Assembly (NCBI GenBank): GCA_017640605.1
Contig: JAEPQH010000003.1
Span: 124,001 to 188,000 of the forward strand
Direction: 5' to 3'
Source: Balneolaceae bacterium
GTDB lineage: Bacteria > Bacteroidota > Rhodothermia > Balneolales > Balneolaceae
Length of the DNA stretch: 64,000 nt
The stretch's first letter is position 1. Each line of letters begins with the position of its first letter. This document shows positions 5,093 through 48,687 of the stretch, piece after piece. The position numbers and the translations under genes are program-made. The notes under the pieces were generated by a model that saw only the letters and a program-made list of their open reading frames with translations, was not told where the DNA came from and searched no databases.

Positions 5093-6043
5093 CTACACCC
5101 GATTTCCACCACTTAACAAATACAGAACTGCCATACGAACAGCCACCCCATTGGTTACTTGATCCAGAATTACTGCTCTGTCACTATCTGCAACATCGCT
5201 TTCAAGTTCTACTCCTCGGTTTATTGGTCCGGGATGCATGATTTTAAAGTCAGGATACTTTTCCAAGTGCTCCATTCTGATTCCAAATAAATCGTGGTAT
5301 TCTCGAAGTGAAGGGAATAATCCGGGGGTATGATCTTGCCGTTCTAATTGAATGCGTAGCGCCATCGCTATATCGCACCACGCCAAAGTTTCTTCCAGAT
5401 TGTAAGAAATGGTACAACCCATTTGCTCTACAAACTTTGGCATAAAAGTTTTTGGGCCACAAATAATTACTTCGGCACCTACTTTTATTAAACCAATAAT
5501 ATTTGATCGGACAACCCTACTGTGTGAGATATCACCAATAATCGCAATCTTCTTTCCGGTGAGATCAGGATGGATTTGCTGCATGGTAAACATATCGAGC
5601 AGCGCCTGTGTTGGATGTTCATGAGCTCCATCGCCGGCATTAAGAATAGAGGCGTCTACACACTGGGTTAGAAAATCGGGTACGCCCGGACTCTCATGCC
5701 TACACACTACCATATCAATTTTCATTGAGCTGATATTGCGGATCGTGTCCTTAAGCGACTCTCCTTTTTTGGTGCTGGAAGTGCTTGCCGAAAAATTCAC
5801 TACATCAGCACCCATTCTTTTTTGAGCTAGTTCGAAGGATAAACGCGTTCTAGTACTATTTTCGTAAAAGAGGTTTACGATGGTTTTATCCCGTAATGTT
5901 GGGATTTTAGGCACCGGTCGATCGAGTATTTCACGAAATGACTTTGCCTGTTCCAGTACAAAGAGGATGTCTTCCTTTGAATACTCGGCTAGCCCCAACA
6001 GATGCTTTTGTTCAAACTGATAATCTTCGGGAATACTACTCAT
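5093..6043 (-). CDS. pyrB: Aspartate carbamoyltransferase catalytic subunit
   Basis: Catalyses carbamoyl phosphate + aspartate to N-carbamoylaspartate, the first committed step of pyrimidine synthesis. The carbamoyl-phosphate loop FYENSTRTRLSFE, the following loop SSTKKGESL, HPTQALLD and the HPGPINRG motif near the C-terminus are all intact. About 316 residues, normal for the catalytic chain. I chose the ATG at 6043 because GGAGG sits at the right distance before it, whereas the upstream alternative at 6061 would place that ribosome site inside the gene. The start overlaps the pyrR stop by 8 bases (ATGAGTAG). No pyrI regulatory subunit is adjacent, so control probably comes through PyrR. Confidence 0.97.
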   Translation of the reverse strand: MSSIPEDYQFEQKHLLGLAEYSKEDILFVLEQAKSFREILDRPVPKIPTLRDKTIVNLFYENSTRTRLSFELAQKRMGADVVNFSASTSSTKKGESLKDTIRNISSMKIDMVVCRHESPGVPDFLTQCVDASILNAGDGAHEHPTQALLDMFTMQQIHPDLTGKKIAIIGDISHSRVVRSNIIGLIKVGAEVIICGPKTFMPKFVEQMGCTISYNLEETLAWCDIAMALRIQLERQDHTPGLFPSLREYHDLFGIRMEHLEKYPDFKIMHPGPINRGVELESDVADSDRAVILDQVTNGVAVRMAVLYLLSGGNRV

Positions 6044-30612: not shown

Positions 30613-30682
30613 AAGCGACTATTTGTGAATTACAAGGTTGTCGTCATTCCGGGTAAGACCCTGAATCTGACTCGAACCCAAT

Positions 30683-30741
30683 CTAGCGCAAGCGTCCGCT
30701 TGTGCGATATTCTGGTCGGTCCAAACGGACGCTTGAACTAG
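30683..30741 (+). repeat. REP-like palindromic element, copy 2
   Basis: 59 bp starting and ending in CTAG. Two arms (CTAGCGCAAGCGTCCGCTTG and the reverse complement-like CAAACGGACGCTTGAACTAG) flank a 15-base spacer; each arm contains the palindrome CAAGCG-NN-CGCTTG. It differs from copy 3 at three positions. Lies between the two lipoprotein genes. Confidence 0.85.
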
Positions 30742-31799: not shown

Positions 31800-31805
31800 C
31801 CCAAT

Positions 31806-31864
31806 CTAGCGCAAGCGTCCGCTTGTGCGATATTCTGATTGGTCCAAGCGGACGCTTGAACTAG
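31806..31864 (+). repeat. REP-like palindromic element, copy 3
   Basis: 59 bp, CTAG at both ends, same two palindromic arms as copy 2. Follows paralogue 2 by 6 bases and could act as a transcription-stop or processing hairpin. Confidence 0.85.
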
Positions 31865-31967
31865 AAATGTCATTTCAAAATGTGACAATTCGTGAATCGT
31901 CTCTACGGTAGCCGTACCAATGCGTCCCTACCTTGTGCCTTTGTCCCTCTGCTCCTTTGTCCCTTTC

Positions 31968-39335: not shown

Positions 39336-39520
39336 AGATTCAAAGCTATGCTGTGCTAACAATTGGATTTTCAAGTGAGCTTTGTTGAGGTTTTCGCAAG
39401 ATACAAAGGGGCAGGCAGGGATTCAATTTGAATCGTGAGTGTTTTTTAGTTTTCGGCTGGGTTGTTTTTATATAACAACTCCATCTTTTTTTGATTTGCT
39501 CCTACAAGTACTCATATAAG
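39336..39520. other. Intergenic stretch, nothing else recognised
   Basis: Between the carA leader and the 122-bp repeat array I see no gene, hairpin or repeat worth naming. The carA promoter may lie in its left part. Confidence 0.4.
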
Positions 39521-39909
39521 TCATTCCTGCGGAGGCAGGAATCTAGTATGTAAATCAAGGTTCCTACCCTATTCAAAGTCTCAGATCTCGGCATTCGCTG
39601 CGGGATGACGTGCTTTTTACTAACACCTTATCCTCTTAAATGTCATTCCCGCGAAGGCGGGAATCTGGAATGTAAATAAAGGTTCTTGCCCTATTCAAAG
39701 CATAAGATCCCGGCGTTCGCTGCGGGATGACGGGCTTTTTACTAACACCTTACCCTTTAAATAGTCATTCCCGCGAAGGCGGGAATCTAGAATGTAAATC
39801 AAGGTTCTTACCCTATTCAAAACATCAGACCCCGGCATATACTGCGGGATGACGGGCTTTTTACTAGCAACTTACCCTCTTAAATGTCATTCCTGGGGAG
39901 GTAGGAAAC
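39521..39909. repeat. 122-bp tandem repeat array (three units plus a fourth partial)
   Basis: Units begin at 39521, 39643, 39765 and 39887, exactly 122 bases apart. Each starts with TCATTCC-(8 nt)-GGAATCT, a hairpin of the ATTCCC-N8-GGGAAT type, continues with CAAGGTTCTTACCCTATTCA and ends with a second hairpin-like segment (CGGCATTCGCTGCGGGATGA). Units differ by scattered substitutions. Confidence 0.9.
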
Positions 39910-40753: not shown

Positions 40754-40944
40754 GAAATCTGCAATGTAAATCAAGATTCATGCCCCAAATAAAAGTTCAG
40801 ATACCGGCATTCGCTGCGAGATGACGGGTTTTAACCAGCAACTTACTCTATTAAAAGTCATTCCCGCGGAGGTGGGAATCTAGAACTTAATTTACAGTTC
40901 CTACCCTATTCAAGGTTTTAGATCCCTGCCTGCGCAGGGATGAC
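40754..40944. repeat. Second copy of the 122-bp-type repeat
   Basis: A partial unit (from AATCTGCAATGTAAATCAAG) followed by a unit starting at 40858 with TCATTCCCGCGGAGGTGGGA and ending in a strong hairpin ATCCCTGC-ctgc-GCAGGGAT (40922-40941). Same orientation as the array at 39.5-39.9 kb. Confidence 0.8.
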
Positions 40945-41371: not shown

Positions 41372-43786
41372 TTAATTTCCGGTTAATGTGATTTCATAGA
41401 GTGCCGTTTCCGGTTTTTCGCGGTAGAAATTGAGCTCAAAATGTTGCCCGAGTCGCCAATTGTCTATAAAGGCATCGTAGTTTGGTGAACCCGGGTTTCC
41501 TGAAATTCCACCGGGATAAACGCCCCAGCCTTTTACTTCCGGACCCAGCTCAACTACCATTCTCCAGCTTGGGCCATACCCAAAACGAGTGGCGTTAATA
41601 GCTTCCGATGATCCGCCGGAGTACACATCATTGGCTCCCATCCCAGGAATCTGGCCTACGTGATCAATGTCGTTATTCATCACATATCCCCAGTTCCAAT
41701 CCTCCCCACGATTGCCGAAGTAAGTGGCCATCACATCGTAAGCGTATTTGTAAGCCGAGGTTGCTAAATGCTGAATGGTTTCCACTTCTTCTGTCTCTAT
41801 GTTGTCTATGAGGGCAAAATCAGGCTCCGACTTCAACACTTCAATCAAACGATCGCGGTCGGGATATCGTAGGCGAACTCCTGCAGCACCGTACTCATCT
41901 CTAAAAATGGAGCGATAAAATTCTCTGAACCAATAGTAGAAAAAGCCGGGTTGTTGCAAATCTGCATTCATCTCGAAATTCCAATCCATCATCGCAGTGA
42001 TAAACTCGATTTCTTTCACGTTTAAACTGTCGCGAATCACCCAATCCAACATTTCGGGCACAATACTTTCTGCGTGCAGACTCATGTTATCCATCTGCAT
42101 GTCCATCATGTCTTGCGGTGTAATGTTCTCCATTTCCCGAAGCATGTCGTTAATTCGTTTTCCCCGTTCGTAAGGAGCAAATTCATCCGACAAATAATAA
42201 GGATACGCATCACCCACCGATTCCTGATTCGCAGAACTCACAAATCCACTTGTGGGATTTTTTATATGTGGATTATGCTTATGCGGAATCCATCCCTGCC
42301 AATCGTAAGCAGGATCTGTTCCGTCACTAACTGATTGTCCCTGATAATCCCATTTATTGGGGAATTTTCCATTCACCCAAATAGCGATATCTCCTTCATT
42401 TGAGGCAAACACAAAGTTTTGAGCCGGAGCTACATAATCTTCCAAGGCTGCTACATAATCATCGTAGTTTTTTGCTTTATTTAGCCCAATAAACGTTTTG
42501 AGACTGTTTCCGGCTTCATGTCCTATCCAGCGCATAGCATGATAATCCGGTTCGTTTAATGTATCGTTTGGATTGGCGAGTACTACCGGCCCGTGGTGGG
42601 TAAAAACCAGCGTATCAATAATGGTTTCTCCGCCTTTTACTTTAATTTCTTCGATGCGTTTGGATGTCGGTTTCCATTCTCCATCGTACCAATATTCGTT
42701 TTTGGATGCATCCTTAAACTCAATCTGATACCAGTCCATTACATCCGAGCCGGTATTGGTTTCCGAAAAAGCAATGTGTTCATTAAACCCAATCAAAATT
42801 CCGGGAATCCCTTGAAAGGTAACGCCATAGGTGTTGTAGCCCGGTGCGTTCAACTGCATTTCCATCCAGATGGAAGGCAGCGATAAACTCAAGTGTGGAT
42901 CGCCGGCTAAAATCGGGTATCCGCTGGCCGTTTTTGATCCATCTACCGCCCAGTTATTGGAGCCAACGCCCGCATTTGGTTCCCAAAATTGTACCCGTTC
43001 TGCCGTTTTGGGGATGAAGTCCGAATCGGGAGCATTGGGTCGTTCAACCGATTCAAAATCCCATACTCTATCGTTTGGAATGATTGGCTCCAGGGATTGC
43101 GGATCGGTATTAAAAAACTTTTCGATGTATTCCTGCCCAAAGTATGCGCGAGTTCTCGAAGTTCGATCATCGCTACTTCCACCCGCTAATGTTCGCAACA
43201 TATTCATGTGGAGCAGACTTGTTTTGAGTGGTGTCCAGGCTTCGGGTGCAGCATCCAATACTTTGTATTCTACTGGATATTCGTCCGGCGAGAGACTTTC
43301 GATGTATGCATTTACCCCTTTTGCATACGCATTCACGATAATAGAACTGGCGGAGTCCTGCATCACAACATCTAGTTTCTTTTCGGCTGCCCAAGGCATT
43401 CCCCATCGCCGGGTTGTTAAATCCCGATCCTGAACTCCCGGGTTTTCACCAATCAATTCCGAAAGTCTTCCGGCCGCATCATAGGTTTGAATTTCCATTT
43501 GAAACAAACGCTGTTGCGCCGTGATATAGCCCTGAGCCATAAACAAATCATGCTCATTTTGAGCAAAAATATGGGGGACTCGCCGCTCATCAAAAACTAC
43601 GGAAACTTCATCCAGAAGTCCTTGAATGTGCAGTATTTCATTTTCTGGCAACGTGGTTTCGGCGTTAGCCCAAAATCCGGCATCCGGATCGAAAAACTTC
43701 CCCAGCGGGGGAATCGAACCAAATTTGGTGTTTAGGGCGAAGATCAATACGACCAAAGCAATTAAAGAAGCTATTGGCTTTGTCAT
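41372..43786 (-). CDS. Penicillin acylase family protein (Ntn hydrolase)
   Basis: 804 residues made as an export-competent precursor (hydrophobic N-terminus PIASLIALVVLIFALNT). The self-processing site is readable as GVGSNNWAVDG: Ser at about residue 276 becomes the N-terminal nucleophile of the beta chain; Asn residues for the oxyanion hole follow (SNNW, and FSETNTGSDVMDW). An alpha chain with ERRVPHIFAQNEHDLFMAQGY precedes. Family members cleave amide bonds in penicillins, N-acyl homoserine lactones or other acyl amides; the true substrate is unknown. Confidence 0.92.
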   Translation of the reverse strand: MTKPIASLIALVVLIFALNTKFGSIPPLGKFFDPDAGFWANAETTLPENEILHIQGLLDEVSVVFDERRVPHIFAQNEHDLFMAQGYITAQQRLFQMEIQTYDAAGRLSELIGENPGVQDRDLTTRRWGMPWAAEKKLDVVMQDSASSIIVNAYAKGVNAYIESLSPDEYPVEYKVLDAAPEAWTPLKTSLLHMNMLRTLAGGSSDDRTSRTRAYFGQEYIEKFFNTDPQSLEPIIPNDRVWDFESVERPNAPDSDFIPKTAERVQFWEPNAGVGSNNWAVDGSKTASGYPILAGDPHLSLSLPSIWMEMQLNAPGYNTYGVTFQGIPGILIGFNEHIAFSETNTGSDVMDWYQIEFKDASKNEYWYDGEWKPTSKRIEEIKVKGGETIIDTLVFTHHGPVVLANPNDTLNEPDYHAMRWIGHEAGNSLKTFIGLNKAKNYDDYVAALEDYVAPAQNFVFASNEGDIAIWVNGKFPNKWDYQGQSVSDGTDPAYDWQGWIPHKHNPHIKNPTSGFVSSANQESVGDAYPYYLSDEFAPYERGKRINDMLREMENITPQDMMDMQMDNMSLHAESIVPEMLDWVIRDSLNVKEIEFITAMMDWNFEMNADLQQPGFFYYWFREFYRSIFRDEYGAAGVRLRYPDRDRLIEVLKSEPDFALIDNIETEEVETIQHLATSAYKYAYDVMATYFGNRGEDWNWGYVMNNDIDHVGQIPGMGANDVYSGGSSEAINATRFGYGPSWRMVVELGPEVKGWGVYPGGISGNPGSPNYDAFIDNWRLGQHFELNFYREKPETALYEITLTGN

Positions 43787-43805
43787 GGATAGGTGATGTG
43801 TTAGG

Positions 43806-43858
43806 TGTTGGGGTGTTGGGGTGTTGGGGTGTTGGGGTGTTGGGGTGTTGGGGTGTTG
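43806..43858 (+). repeat. G-rich tandem repeat TGTTGGGG, six copies
   Basis: Six exact TGTTGGGG units at 43806-43853 plus a partial one. Six runs of four G with 4-base loops on the plus strand could fold into a G-quadruplex. It lies between the penicillin acylase gene and the four-helix-bundle gene. Confidence 0.93.
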
Positions 43859-43924
43859 AAAATAATTTGTAAGGAGTTCAAATAAACTCAGTCTTACTAT
43901 TAAATCAAAATGAACTAAGTAAAG

Positions 43925-44296
43925 ATGAAAGTCACAAAATTTGAAGACCTGAATTGTTGGAAAGATTCGCGGAAATTAGTTTCTATGATCTATCGTATCA
44001 CTAATGAATTGCCATTTTCTAAAGATTTTGGATTACGTGATCAAATCCAAAGGGCGTCAGTATCTGTCATGACAAACATAGCGGAAGGATTTCATCGGTA
44101 TTTTGATAAAGAAAGCATTCGGTTCTATGATTTTGCACAAAGTTCAGCTGCAGAAGTTTCTAGTTTGCTTTATGTAGCTCAAGATCAATCTTATATCACT
44201 GAAGATGACGCAATATTAATTCGAGAACAAGCCAATAAAACTAGAGCCCAAATACTCGCCATGATTAAATACTACCGAAAAAAAGAGATGAAGTGA
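43925..44296 (+). CDS. Four-helix-bundle protein (23S intervening-sequence family)
   Basis: 123 residues. FEDLNCWKDSRKLVSMIYRI, DFGLRDQIQRASVSVMTNIA and EGFHRYFDKESIRFYDFAQS are the family landmarks; the rest is helical, ending with a Lys-rich tail. Related proteins are encoded inside 23S rRNA intervening sequences and, as bAvd, next to reverse transcriptases in diversity-generating retroelements; free-standing copies such as this are common in Bacteroidota and are of unknown function, possibly nucleic-acid binding. AAAG is the only ribosome site. G-rich arrays lie on both sides. Confidence 0.88.
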   Translation: MKVTKFEDLNCWKDSRKLVSMIYRITNELPFSKDFGLRDQIQRASVSVMTNIAEGFHRYFDKESIRFYDFAQSSAAEVSSLLYVAQDQSYITEDDAILIREQANKTRAQILAMIKYYRKKEMK

Positions 44297-44342
44297 TTTG
44301 GTGTTGGACGTTTTCGCGTGTTGACGTACTGAGGTATTCAGG

Positions 44343-44374
44343 TGTTGGGGTGTTGGGGTGTTGGGGTGTTGGGG
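44343..44374 (+). repeat. G-rich tandem repeat TGTTGGGG, four copies
   Basis: Four exact TGTTGGGG units, the same motif and orientation as at 43.8 kb, 47 bases after the four-helix-bundle stop. Confidence 0.93.
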
Positions 44375-44406
44375 TAAAATTTGCCCTATAACTACTTAAT
44401 CAATAC

Positions 44407-44446
44407 AACACTTGAACACTTGAATACTCGAACACCCGAACACTAT
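44407..44446 (-). repeat. Degenerate 8-bp repeat in reverse orientation
   Basis: AACACTTG twice, AATACTCG, AACACCCG and a partial AACACTAT. Read on the minus strand these are CAAGTGTT/CGGGTGTT units, degenerate versions of the GGGGTGTT array lying head-on to it. Confidence 0.75.
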
Positions 44447-44447
44447 A

Positions 44448-45344
44448 TCACCAAAGCATCATCTTCATGCAAAAAACACTACCACCGCTTTTTAAGTACT
44501 CTTCGGTGTTAAATTCATGAACGATAAAGCCGAGTTCTTCGAGTTTAGCATTTACCTCGGTACAGCCTTTTTGAATCATTACATTTTTACCGTCCGGGCA
44601 GGTAGCGTTGCAAGCGAATAAGTCTTCGGCTTCGTGCTGATTCGCTTCAATCACAGTTGGAAAAATTGCCCGAATTTTTGCAAGTCCGTCGGCGGTAAAT
44701 GCCGGAGGATATATCAAACATGTTTCTTCATTAAGAATGCACAAACAGGTATCGAGGTGATAGAATTTTTCATTCACCAACTCGAGGGCTATAACCGGAG
44801 TGTCTAAAGTTTCAGAAATATGATCATACACTTCCGAACTCGAACGATAACCGTAACCGCCCCAAATCAGGCGTTTTTTGAAATGCCAAATAGCATCACC
44901 CATCCCCTCAAAATCCGTAAACTGAGTTTCATCAAGATGAATTACGTTGTATGAGCTTTCTTCGTACACTTTTTCGATATGAGGTACTTCTCCTTTTCGC
45001 TCAGGAGCATGCATCACACTCATAATCACTTCTTTTGTGCCATCAGCTTTTATATTTGGCAGACTTTGATTGGCACAAAAAACCATGTCGGGGTACTCGG
45101 GCTGTGGGGCAACTTCATGCACATAAAATCCCAGCTTTTTGTAGGCATCCCGAAGCCGGTTCCACTCGGCAGTTGCTTCTTCTTTGTTGATGTCGCCGAT
45201 ATGACCTTCCATATGTGGATTAATAACATATTTGACATCAAAGTATTTAGGATGCACCACCATTACTTTACCCGGTGCCGGCATATCTTCAAGATCAGCA
45301 AATGTAAAATCAAGCTGATCTGAATGCGTGATTACTCTTCTCAT
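44448..45344 (-). CDS. Amidinotransferase-fold hydrolase (arginine deiminase/DDAH-like)
   Basis: 298 residues of the guanidino-group-modifying beta/alpha propeller fold. Catalytic residues readable: DMVFCANQSL near residue 86, His in KFYHLDTCLCIL near 195, and the C-terminal Cys in GGSVFCMKM near residue 292. The family includes arginine deiminase, DDAH and amidinotransferases; length and layout fit a DDAH-like enzyme acting on arginine or methylated arginine, but the substrate is not proven. No arc operon genes nearby. Confidence 0.85.
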   Translation of the reverse strand: MRRVITHSDQLDFTFADLEDMPAPGKVMVVHPKYFDVKYVINPHMEGHIGDINKEEATAEWNRLRDAYKKLGFYVHEVAPQPEYPDMVFCANQSLPNIKADGTKEVIMSVMHAPERKGEVPHIEKVYEESSYNVIHLDETQFTDFEGMGDAIWHFKKRLIWGGYGYRSSSEVYDHISETLDTPVIALELVNEKFYHLDTCLCILNEETCLIYPPAFTADGLAKIRAIFPTVIEANQHEAEDLFACNATCPDGKNVMIQKGCTEVNAKLEELGFIVHEFNTEEYLKSGGSVFCMKMMLW

Positions 45345-45524: not shown

Positions 45525-46715
45525 ATGAATCAAAAAAATCTGATTATAGCCTTTGGGGGCGTTTCTCCCGAACACGAAGTATCGGTATTAACAGCCATGC
45601 AGGTTTTTTCTGCACTTGAAAATTCCAGCTATAACTTAGTTCCGTTATATATCACAAAATCAGGACATTGGCTGGGTGGTGATGCACTTTCAAATCTGGA
45701 AAATTACAAAGATCTGAACACACTTGAATCGATGTGTTATCCCGTTTCCTTTACTAAAAGCGAGATGGGAATTACACATTTAACCGAGCAAGGAAATTTT
45801 GGCTTATTCAAAAAACCGATTTCAGTTCCGGTTTACGCTGTTGTTTGTGCTTTCCACGGCAGTGAAGGCGAAAATGGTGCATTTCAGGGAATCTGCGAGC
45901 AATACAATATTCCTTATACGGGAAGTGGAGTGTTAGCTTCGTCGGTTGGGATGGATAAAGTAAAAGCCAAACAATTGTGCGAAGCGAATCAGATTCCGGT
46001 TACCTCAAGTTTAGATTTTTACGAAAGTGATTGGGAGCAACATCAGGAAACAATTCTTAATGAAGCAGCACTGCTTGAATTTCCTCTCGTCGTTAAACCC
46101 TCTTCATTGGGAAGTAGTATTGGCGTAAAAAAAGTAGATACCAAAGAAGAGCTCATTGAAGCTGTAGAAATTGCCTTCCGCTACGACGCCCATCTGTTGG
46201 TTGAGGTTGCCATTAATCCTCTTATGGAAATCAACTGCTCTGTGCTTGGAACTTCTGAAACGTGTCGCGCAAGTGTATGTGAACGCCCACTAGGCAGTAT
46301 GGAGACACTTTCATTCGAAGATAAATATCAACGTGGCGGGGGCGCTGAAAAAGGAATGGCTTCCGCAGATCGTGTAATTCCGGCAGATATTTCGCCTGAG
46401 CTAACCGATCAAATTCGGTCGATGGCTGTGCATACCTTCAAAACCTTTGATGCCTCCGGGGTTGCGCGACTCGATTTTCTGGTAAATGCTGATACCGAAG
46501 AGGTCTATTTTAACGAGATAAATACCATACCGGGTTCTTTTTCTTTTTATTTATGGGAAAAATCTGATCTTAGTTTTGCTGGATTAGTGAACGAACTCAT
46601 TGATATTGCATTAAAGAAGCATCAAGCTAAAAACGGTCGTATTCGCAGTTATGAAACCAATTTGCTAAGCGAAAAAGCAGCTACAGGCATAAAAGGGTTA
46701 AAAGGCAGTAAATGA
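45525..46715 (+). CDS. ddl: D-alanine-D-alanine ligase
   Basis: Makes the D-Ala-D-Ala dipeptide of peptidoglycan precursors from two D-Ala and ATP. IAFGGVSPEHEVSVLTAMQV is the N-terminal signature, CAFHGSEGENGAFQG the second, ATP-grasp residues follow (PLVVKPSSLGSSIGVKK) and FNEINTIPGSFSFYLWEKS carries the metal and substrate residues. SFEDKYQRGGG holds the Tyr of the omega loop typical of D-Ala rather than D-lactate ligases. 396 residues, slightly longer than E. coli DdlB. ATGA overlap with nadK. Confidence 0.95.
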   Translation: MNQKNLIIAFGGVSPEHEVSVLTAMQVFSALENSSYNLVPLYITKSGHWLGGDALSNLENYKDLNTLESMCYPVSFTKSEMGITHLTEQGNFGLFKKPISVPVYAVVCAFHGSEGENGAFQGICEQYNIPYTGSGVLASSVGMDKVKAKQLCEANQIPVTSSLDFYESDWEQHQETILNEAALLEFPLVVKPSSLGSSIGVKKVDTKEELIEAVEIAFRYDAHLLVEVAINPLMEINCSVLGTSETCRASVCERPLGSMETLSFEDKYQRGGGAEKGMASADRVIPADISPELTDQIRSMAVHTFKTFDASGVARLDFLVNADTEEVYFNEINTIPGSFSFYLWEKSDLSFAGLVNELIDIALKKHQAKNGRIRSYETNLLSEKAATGIKGLKGSK

Positions 46716-47602
46716 CCGCCACCACATTAAATATCGGGGTAATTGCGAATCCTCAAAAGTATGAGGTGAAGTCGGTATTCAAAACGGCGTTAAAATGGGC
46801 CGAGTCTAAAAAAGTGACTCTATACGTTTCGCAATCGATATGTGAATTGTTGAAGCCCAAAAAATCTCAAAATTTGATTCTCACCGAAAGTGATGAAGAC
46901 ACCATTCAGCAAGCCGATATTTTAGTAGTTATGGGTGGTGATGGTACTATTCTATACACTGCGCGCATCTCCAAAAACAATCCCAAACCGGTGCTTGGGG
47001 TAAATAGTGGTCGATTAGGATTTATGACCAATACTCAAAACGAGGATCTTGTAGAAGCGCTGGAACTTGTAAGAACCGGAAATTATAAACTCGACCGCCG
47101 GCATTTTCTAAAGGCCACAACTAGTAACGGGAGCGAATTTTTTGCTTTAAATGAATTTCTGTTTACCCGAACAGATTCAACCTCGATGATCAATATTTCA
47201 GCGGAATATGATGGGCATCCGATCAACACCTATTGGGCGGATGGTTTATTAGTTGCATCTCCAACAGGATCAACGGCCTATAATTTGTCTTCAGGTGGAC
47301 CGATTGTAGCGCCCGGTTCCGGAGTGATTTTGCTTACACCTATTAATCCACATACGCTTACTACAAGGCCGCTGGTGGTAAGTGCAGATAAAGCGCTCAC
47401 AATAAAGGTGGATCAACAACCGAGTAATATTTTGTTTTCGTATGATGGTGTAGTTGAAGAAATCGATGCATTGCCATTTAGTGTGCAAATTCAAAAATCA
47501 AAACTAGCCTTTCCACTCATTCAACTCCCTGATCAAAATTATTTCGATACCCTCCGCAAAAAACTCATGTGGGGACAGGATTCTAGAAGATTGAAGAATT
47601 AG
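46712..47602 (+). CDS. nadK: NAD kinase
   Basis: Phosphorylates NAD+ to NADP+ with ATP. The GGDGT motif is present as VVMGGDGTILYTAR near residue 73, followed by VNSGRLGFMTN, the YWADGLLVASPTGSTAYNLS segment and GPIVAPGSGVILLTPINPH, all family landmarks. 296 residues. Start overlaps the ddl stop by 4 bases, so it is co-transcribed with ddl. Confidence 0.96.
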   Translation: MTATTLNIGVIANPQKYEVKSVFKTALKWAESKKVTLYVSQSICELLKPKKSQNLILTESDEDTIQQADILVVMGGDGTILYTARISKNNPKPVLGVNSGRLGFMTNTQNEDLVEALELVRTGNYKLDRRHFLKATTSNGSEFFALNEFLFTRTDSTSMINISAEYDGHPINTYWADGLLVASPTGSTAYNLSSGGPIVAPGSGVILLTPINPHTLTTRPLVVSADKALTIKVDQQPSNILFSYDGVVEEIDALPFSVQIQKSKLAFPLIQLPDQNYFDTLRKKLMWGQDSRRLKN

Positions 47603-47648
47603 AGAATATAGAATGTAGAATCTGGAATTATTCTACATTCTATATTCT
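47603..47648 (+). repeat. 19-bp perfect inverted repeat after nadK
   Basis: AGAATATAGAATGTAGAAT (47603-47621) and its exact reverse complement (47630-47648) around an 8-base loop, beginning right after the nadK stop and followed by more TATTCT repeats. No T tract, so it may stop or stabilise the transcript as a long hairpin. Confidence 0.85.
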
Positions 47649-47730
47649 GTATTCTATATCTTCATCACGAATACATAAAAGCGGAATAGCTTAAACACGA
47701 ATTTCAAACTTAAAACTCAATTTTAGTTCC

Positions 47731-48687
47731 ATGAAAGTAACAGTAGTAGGAGCCGGCGGTAATGTAGGGTCAACCGTTGCATTAAGCGTAGCACAAAGAG
47801 ACTTTGCAAAAGAAGTAATTGCTCTCGATTTAGAGCGAAAAGATGGTGACAAAACGTTTTATCCATCAAAAGGTCGCGCACTTGACCAATGGCAGGTTTC
47901 ACCCATCGATTTGTTTGATACTCGCGTAAAAGGAACCACCGACTATGCAGATACCGCAAACTCTGATGTTTGTGTGATTACAGCTGGTGTTCCACGTCGT
48001 CCGGGTATGAGCCGAGACGATCTGCTTTCCATCAATGCGAATATTGTTGAGAGCGTGACAAAAGAGCTTGTAAAGTATTCTCCGGACACCATCATCATTG
48101 TTGTTTCTAATCCTTTGGATGTAATGGTACAAGTGGCAAAAGATGCTTCCGGCTTGCCATACGAAAAAGTGATGGGAATGGCCGGAATTTTGGATACTGC
48201 ACGCTATCGTGCATTTATTGCCGAAGAAATTGGCGCTTCTCCAAAAGATATTCAGGCGATGTTAATGGGTGGCCATGGCGATACGATGGTTCCACTACCT
48301 CGCTTTACCACTGTTTCAGGGCTACCAATCTCTCACTTTATTTCTGATGAGCGCTTAAATGAAATTGTTGAGCGAGCTAAAAAAGGTGGCGGAGAATTAG
48401 TTGGTTTGATGGGAACCTCTGCCTGGTATGCGCCAGGTACTGCAGCTGCTCAAATGGTGGAGGCAATATTATTGGATCAAAACCGTATTTTCCCGGTATG
48501 TGCTCACATTGATGGTGAGTTCGGGATCGATGACTTGTATATCGGTGTTCCTGTAATGCTTGGCAAAGGCGGTATTAAAAAAGTAATTGAAGTTGCGCTT
48601 ACTGATGATGAGCAAGAACTTCTAAACAATTCTGCGAACCATGTTCGTGGAACATTAGATGCCTTCAAGGCGCTAATGAATAAATAA
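47731..48687 (+). CDS. mdh: Malate dehydrogenase
   Basis: 318 residues, NAD-dependent enzyme of the TCA cycle in the LDH-like subgroup. VVGAGGNVGSTVALSVAQRD is the Rossmann glycine loop; substrate-binding Arg residues are in GVPRRPGMSRDDLL; VSNPLDVMV and catalytic His in MGGHGDTMVPLPR are intact. The Arg-Arg pair in the loop argues for malate over lactate. Own transcription unit, with a terminator behind it. Confidence 0.96.
   Translation: MKVTVVGAGGNVGSTVALSVAQRDFAKEVIALDLERKDGDKTFYPSKGRALDQWQVSPIDLFDTRVKGTTDYADTANSDVCVITAGVPRRPGMSRDDLLSINANIVESVTKELVKYSPDTIIIVVSNPLDVMVQVAKDASGLPYEKVMGMAGILDTARYRAFIAEEIGASPKDIQAMLMGGHGDTMVPLPRFTTVSGLPISHFISDERLNEIVERAKKGGGELVGLMGTSAWYAPGTAAAQMVEAILLDQNRIFPVCAHIDGEFGIDDLYIGVPVMLGKGGIKKVIEVALTDDEQELLNNSANHVRGTLDAFKALMNK

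Follow-up and report, generated by a model that had tools for sequence, protein, structure and literature searches.

Why does a small gene in this genome stand between arrays of a G-rich 8-bp word? Within the window, the whole 64-kb stretch of DNA that was analysed, the word TGTTGGGG occurred six times in tandem at 43806–43853 and four times at 44343–44374, both on the same strand and on either side of a four-helix-bundle gene. These arrays, which an earlier note on this DNA had described, are far above chance (11 matches in the 64 kb versus 1.38 expected, 0 of 100 shuffles), and there was only one stray copy elsewhere in the window. TRF placed the arrays at 43804–43858 (6.9 units) and 44341–44375 (4.4 units), with a 100% match in both. 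The features of the site, in window positions, were the following.

41372–43786, minus strand: left neighbour, a penicillin-acylase-family gene (PF01804); site boundary
43804–43858, plus strand: array A, the cassette's 5' arm; ~6.9 perfect GTGTTGGG units of 8 bp, with an inverted match to array C
43866–43897, plus strand: leader motif TTTGTAAGGA ... GTCTTAC (leaders were compared by eye)
43925–44296, plus strand: four-helix-bundle (S23/IVP-type) gene, 123 aa (TIGR02436 and PF05635)
44302–44375, plus strand: array B, inner arm of a local hairpin with array C; 8-bp units on the same strand as A
44407–44446, minus strand: array C, outer 3' arm; degenerate reversed units complementary to A and B
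44448–45344, minus strand: right neighbour, a DDAH/arginine-deiminase-like gene (PF19420); site boundary
47595–47655, no strand: gene-free, arms-only hairpin built of 7-bp TAGAATN words; it lies between a gene at 46712–47602 and one that starts at 47731

The 123-aa protein matched the TIGR02436 profile with 103.5 bits (cut-off 24) over residues 11–117 and PF05635 (23S_rRNA_IVP) with 112.3 (cut-off 33.8), and it has a solved homologue (2GSC, XCC0516). Its gene runs antiparallel to both neighbours. The leader is a small inverted repeat in its own right, and many copies in related genomes carry it, conserved, ahead of their start codon. The G-rich strand of array A runs inward. Array B, also G-rich, starts with degenerate 8-bp units (44302–44340), followed by the 4.4 perfect GTGTTGGG units at 44341–44375. 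Array C, which adjoins the 3' end of the DDAH-like gene, reads GTGTTCGG GTGTTCGA GTATTCAA GTGTTCAA GTGTTG on the minus strand.

Array C paired with A across the gene (0 of 2000 shuffles did as well) and with B locally (1 of 2000). Because both A and B pair with C, the layout of A, gene and B resolves into a single pair of arms and an additional hairpin of local extent: the bracket is the inverted pair A/C, and B is the inner arm of C's own 3' hairpin. The reversed array reported by the earlier note is thus real, but it is the true partner arm of A and not the afterthought for which it had been taken. The word period at this locus was 8. Being direct repeats, A and B might bring about loss of the gene, with a hairpin remaining. 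The gene-free hairpin at 47595–47655 shares its word family with the arms of another copy (L002) and is perhaps the relic of a lost cassette. Other repeats were also seen in the window: three tandem copies of a 122-bp unit with GTCATTCCCGCGAAGGCGGGAATCTAG and, close to them, an inverted copy lie at 39520–39893 and 40919–40944, and related palindromes (TCTAGCGCAAGCGTCCGCTTG) lie at 30682–30702 and 31805–31865.

A profile search of the genome gave 15 matches, corresponding to 14 four-helix-bundle genes. Most of these copies carried their own repeats, of the same design but with other words, e.g. CCAGCAA, TAACTCTG, AACTGAT, CTCACGT, TCGGTGAT and TTCTTAA. When the two flanks of each of the 14 genes were aligned in inverted orientation, true pairs reached a mean local-alignment score of 35.5, compared with 21.0 for flanks taken from different genes. 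Since own flanks match inverted and mismatched flanks do not, the element consists of two arrays in inverted orientation, with a word private to its site.

The same was seen in a related set of 96 loci, probably Balneolales as judged from the nearest named hits (Gracilimonas and Aliifodinibius). Here the own inverted pair was in the top 5% of its row at 69 loci, in contrast to eight for the direct orientation, and 56% of own pairs scored at least 30, as did 1.6% of mismatched pairs. None of 80 ordinary genes of similar size, from a 400-kb sample of this genome used as background, reached that score. The score thresholds were our own choice, and start codons were assigned by rule. For 71 loci from Chloroflexota, Neomarinimicrobiota, Acidobacteria, Verrucomicrobia and further phyla, picked by similarity to the window protein and therefore not a census, the corresponding values were 49% and 6.5%. 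About a quarter to half of the copies were without clear arms at the thresholds used, reflecting either decay or arms that are not universal. Read inward, the 5' arm was G-rich and C-poor at 48 of 60 and 28 of 37 untied loci, a bias that the simple hairpins of this genome did not have (23 versus 20).

Strict arrays were approximately 11-fold denser beside four-helix-bundle genes than in the other non-coding DNA of the genome, and many orthologues had arms, with other words. The arrays belong with the gene, as the earlier note had surmised, and flanking arrays are a general feature of this gene family; they are neither scattered through the genome without a link to the gene nor generally missing from its orthologues. 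Arms were also found without the gene. Samples of genomes lacking the gene held no arrays in 500 kb, but samples of three other gene-rich genomes held none either, and the comparison is confounded by lineage. All six strict arrays found elsewhere in gene-rich genomes had a period of 7. Separately, positions 5300–6610 of L224 (G000:C10) contained several copies of a repeat unit some hundreds of bases long, with CTCCTTTCTCCTGATTCC-type 7-bp arrays at the end of each copy and no obvious gene inside.

A dimer of the window word, TGTTGGGGTGTTGGGG, was found nowhere but at the window locus among the 39 genomes searched (its own and 38 relatives), and TGTTGGGG was accordingly rejected as a dispersed target. 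Words are specific to their locus and often differ even between orthologues, which speaks against the earlier proposal that TGTTGGGG is a shared target or binding sequence. G-quadruplex capacity, which the earlier note had pointed out, did not hold up as a common feature: four runs of three or more Gs were present at only 2 of the 96 related loci, one of them the window locus, and at 3 of the 71 others. This capacity is a peculiarity of the window copy and is incidental. From site to site the word changed, with the complementarity of the arms preserved. Together, the data point to a type of gene cassette, bracketed by hairpins, that is widespread and has apparently not been described before; a search of open-licence papers for a link between the four-helix-bundle family and tandem repeats returned nothing relevant.

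Word length was constrained. At a strict cut, the best period was 7, 8, 14 or 15 in all 102 loci with arms, whereas shuffled letters gave all periods. Among loci with arms, a looser cut gave 7 or 8 as the best lag in 69 of 73 and 47 of 51 cases (116 of 124 together). Genes of the unrelated GxxExxY family (TIGR04256) also had inverted flanks (47% of own versus 3.3% of mismatched pairs at a score of at least 28, 66 loci), but their lags were mostly 9–10, with CGCAGAGNN-type words (L075–L077, L344–L415). The periodicity was weaker than at four-helix-bundle loci, and the cargo-specific word length is based on 31 GxxExxY loci from one bacterial class. In one species, G012, cassettes of both kinds stood side by side. 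Because word length follows the cargo, something in the biology of the cassette probably sets or favours the geometry of the stem. At L396 (G018:C9, ~91044–91385), the GxxExxY match lay in an open frame of 883 codons; the same was seen in G043 and G047, and in G075 with 896 codons, and frames of this type are possibly fusions to a large protein.

Orthologous sites were compared using the DDAH-like gene as a marker. The DDAH site held a four-helix-bundle gene in four species (G000, G005, G008 and G009), with four different words, and a GxxExxY gene in G018. An arms-only hairpin, of the kind that gene loss between A and B would leave, was present at this site in the sister species G001 and in species G019. 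An element similar to the 122-bp unit of the window was seen at the DDAH site of G007 (L047), which marks that unit as a dispersed repeat. In a tree of 93 proteins, the DDAH-site copies formed one clade (100/99), and most other sites largely did likewise. As the tree groups the proteins by site, the copies are mostly old and vertically inherited. Nine syntenic sites were common to the sister species. At three of these (L009/L165, L006/L160 and L011/L021), the words had changed on both sides while the arms still matched. With flipped pairs removed, the median arm match was 30 within a locus and 21 between orthologues. The proteins had dN far below dS; they are under purifying selection, and the cassette is thus more than debris.

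The sites were not static. Different protein lineages occupied the same site in different species at three sites (S1, S5, S6), and at three others (S4, S0b, S0d) the orthologous gene was inverted between unchanged syntenic neighbours. Between sodA and brxA, the sister species retained both arms around a fused ORF remnant, the one clear deletion relic; in G005, the sodA site had arms without a gene. The gene is probably the ancestral state at both the DDAH and the sodA site, and arms alone at these two sites therefore look like losses. In scpB, a cassette was inserted within the 3' end, where five relatives are uninterrupted; it replaced ~70 bp of a low-complexity tail, and its borders are blurred by the array. 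As for the suggestion that the cassette is mobile, signs of movement and rearrangement were found (insertion in a gene, lineage swaps at a site, inversion in place), although most copies are old and vertically inherited.

Stems made of heptamers are known from other settings. The P6b loop of the Nostoc trnL intron contains degenerate heptanucleotide stems of two classes, TDNGATT and NNTGAGT (PMC4476775). There, as in cyanobacterial STRR heptamers, a stem of seven-nucleotide repeats pairs with their complements, and in P6b the word class switches while the structure stays and units are gained on both sides. The cassettes likewise had complementary arms of degenerate words, with lags of 7–8. P6b, however, lies within an intron RNA, with two word classes reported and no protein gene in its loop, whereas the cassettes enclose a protein gene and their word is private to the locus, rather than forming a structured non-coding RNA or dispersing one word per genome. 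Intergenic heptamer arrays have been described for GGGAATC in Xanthomonas and GGGGATT in Nostoc (PMC4692102), and for TAACTGA in Beggiatoaceae, Cyanobacteria and Bacteroidetes (PMC4679880). All of these are likewise seven-bp and intergenic, and in Xanthomonas many form convergent inverted pairs. The published arrays have one main word per genome, whereas here the word changes by locus. The terms S23 and helix bundle are absent from both papers, which make no link to a four-helix-bundle gene.

The protein family is the same as that of 23S rRNA intervening sequences (IVS), which sit within the rRNA gene, in helices 9, 25 or 45. The cassettes could be RNA elements of this sort, with arms pairing in the transcript, RNase III cutting the stem, and selection for RNA pairing maintaining the complementarity. 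The Coxiella burnetii 23S rRNA IVS, which encodes S23p, has complementary ends and is excised by RNase III (PMC4990558). Both systems have a PF05635/TIGR02436 ORF in a loop closed by complementary ends, occur sporadically, and show decay of the ORF with the stem kept. The arms on both sides of the ORF also fit, as does the window element, which folded better than its shuffles (z −2.97, DNA parameters). We nevertheless consider this reading unlikely. The window cassette is flanked by acylase and DDAH-like genes and not by rRNA, and hence is not a 23S IVS; the four other sites whose neighbouring ORFs were read (L003, L008, L012, L013) also lay among protein genes. Cassettes occur in many copies per genome, once within the scpB 3' end, their stems are arrays of locus-private 7–8-bp words, and arms outlast a deleted gene. 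Mismatches in the arms had no excess of G.U over A.C (145 versus 180), although selection for pairing in the gene-sense RNA should produce one, and such selection was therefore rejected as the principal force preserving the arms. An ordinary IS or MITE with terminal inverted repeats would also have inverted ends, intergenic sites and more than one copy in a genome. This reading is highly improbable: the ends had no sequence in common between copies (mismatched flanks were at background, ~20, versus 32–36 for own flanks), the cassette lacks a transposase, and the copies are long resident at conserved syntenic sites. Diversity-generating retroelements had been brought in by the earlier note through bAvd, whose four-helix-bundle fold is related. 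The genome (assembly 99.84% complete) had no match to the RVT_1 reverse transcriptase; machinery of that kind, of retrons or of group II introns was rejected on this ground, and the link was dropped.

Two further readings concern the relation between gene and stem. The gene could be a bystander, with the hairpins at gene ends being neutral products of slippage and arm correction, or terminators, and the gene family tolerating or preferring such spots. The arms-only hairpins at orthologous gene-free sites (DDAH in G001 and G019, sodA in G005) and elsewhere would agree with this, as would the sodA words, which resemble a terminator stem, and the heptamer arrays of intergenic DNA mentioned above. 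It is an improbable explanation all the same, given that ordinary small genes had no such arms, that strict arrays concentrate beside four-helix-bundle genes, that the period depends on the cargo, and that the arms-only DDAH and sodA sites look like losses. The opposite reading is that the stems are self-made: the four-helix-bundle protein, and separately the GxxExxY protein, would help to build or copy short words, hence a length linked to the cargo. The periods of 7–8 in several phyla and of 9–10 at GxxExxY genes in related genomes, once side by side (in G012), favour it, as do the empty samples of gene-free genomes and the uniform period of 7 in the arrays elsewhere in gene-rich genomes. 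However, we know of no catalytic residues in the four-helix-bundle family, the genome has no reverse transcriptase, arms remain after gene loss, and the samples of three other gene-rich genomes were also empty. A self-made stem therefore appears quite unlikely.

The explanation that we favour, and hold to be reasonably probable from the sequence comparisons, is an IVS-like cassette in which a protein gene under selection lies within a DNA stem that template switching during replication would maintain. Its anatomy is well supported; the mechanism we infer. Complementarity that survives wholesale change of the word requires either selection for pairing or copying from arm to arm, and a mechanism at the DNA level is favoured by the lack of a G.U excess and by the homogenised arms and inverted spacers, which are signatures of template switching. 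Between imperfect inverted repeats, template switching is reported to homogenise arms and to invert spacers (PMC8604942). In the proposed cassette, the gene is the cargo; facing arms of degenerate 7–8-bp words form an inverted repeat, with gene and leader in the loop, and the word, being private to each site, is not a recognition sequence. The arms would fold on each other when single-stranded at replication, and slippage would lengthen the arrays. By copying one arm onto the other, polymerase template switching would preserve their complementarity as the word drifts; from time to time it would also invert or delete the loop. Our guess is that the protein, which is related to the 23S IVS protein, may bind the stem; stems may also act as landing sites.

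Several observations stand against this explanation. Quasipalindrome template switching (PMC8604942, PMC7202029) resembles the present case in both arm homogenisation and spacer inversion, but it is documented for short spacers and multinucleotide changes, and not for a gene-sized loop, here ~500 bp, between arms of tandem words. Most copies are old and vertically inherited, with no target duplication defined, and arms without a gene indicate that the gene is dispensable, at least in the short term. Template switching and slippage would account for the arms, but not for why the four-helix-bundle family occupies the loop.

The four-helix-bundle family is common in bacteria, and to our knowledge no role has been assigned to it since it was first met with in split rRNA genes. 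The same rule in several phyla, with a gene in the loop, a private complementary stem and a word length tied to the cargo, is a first handle on its function and allows cassettes and their remnants to be recognised by a simple test on the sequence. The cassettes also offer cases from nature in which the two arms of an inverted repeat change together and a loop as large as a gene is inverted. More tentatively, four-helix-bundle and GxxExxY genes might represent two classes of one unnamed element, with private-word DNA stems whose word length is set by the cargo (7–8 and 9–10 bp); building, copying or selecting these stems would fall to the encoded protein or to some process specific to the cargo. 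If this were true, the role of the IVS protein S23p would be the maintenance of the stem.
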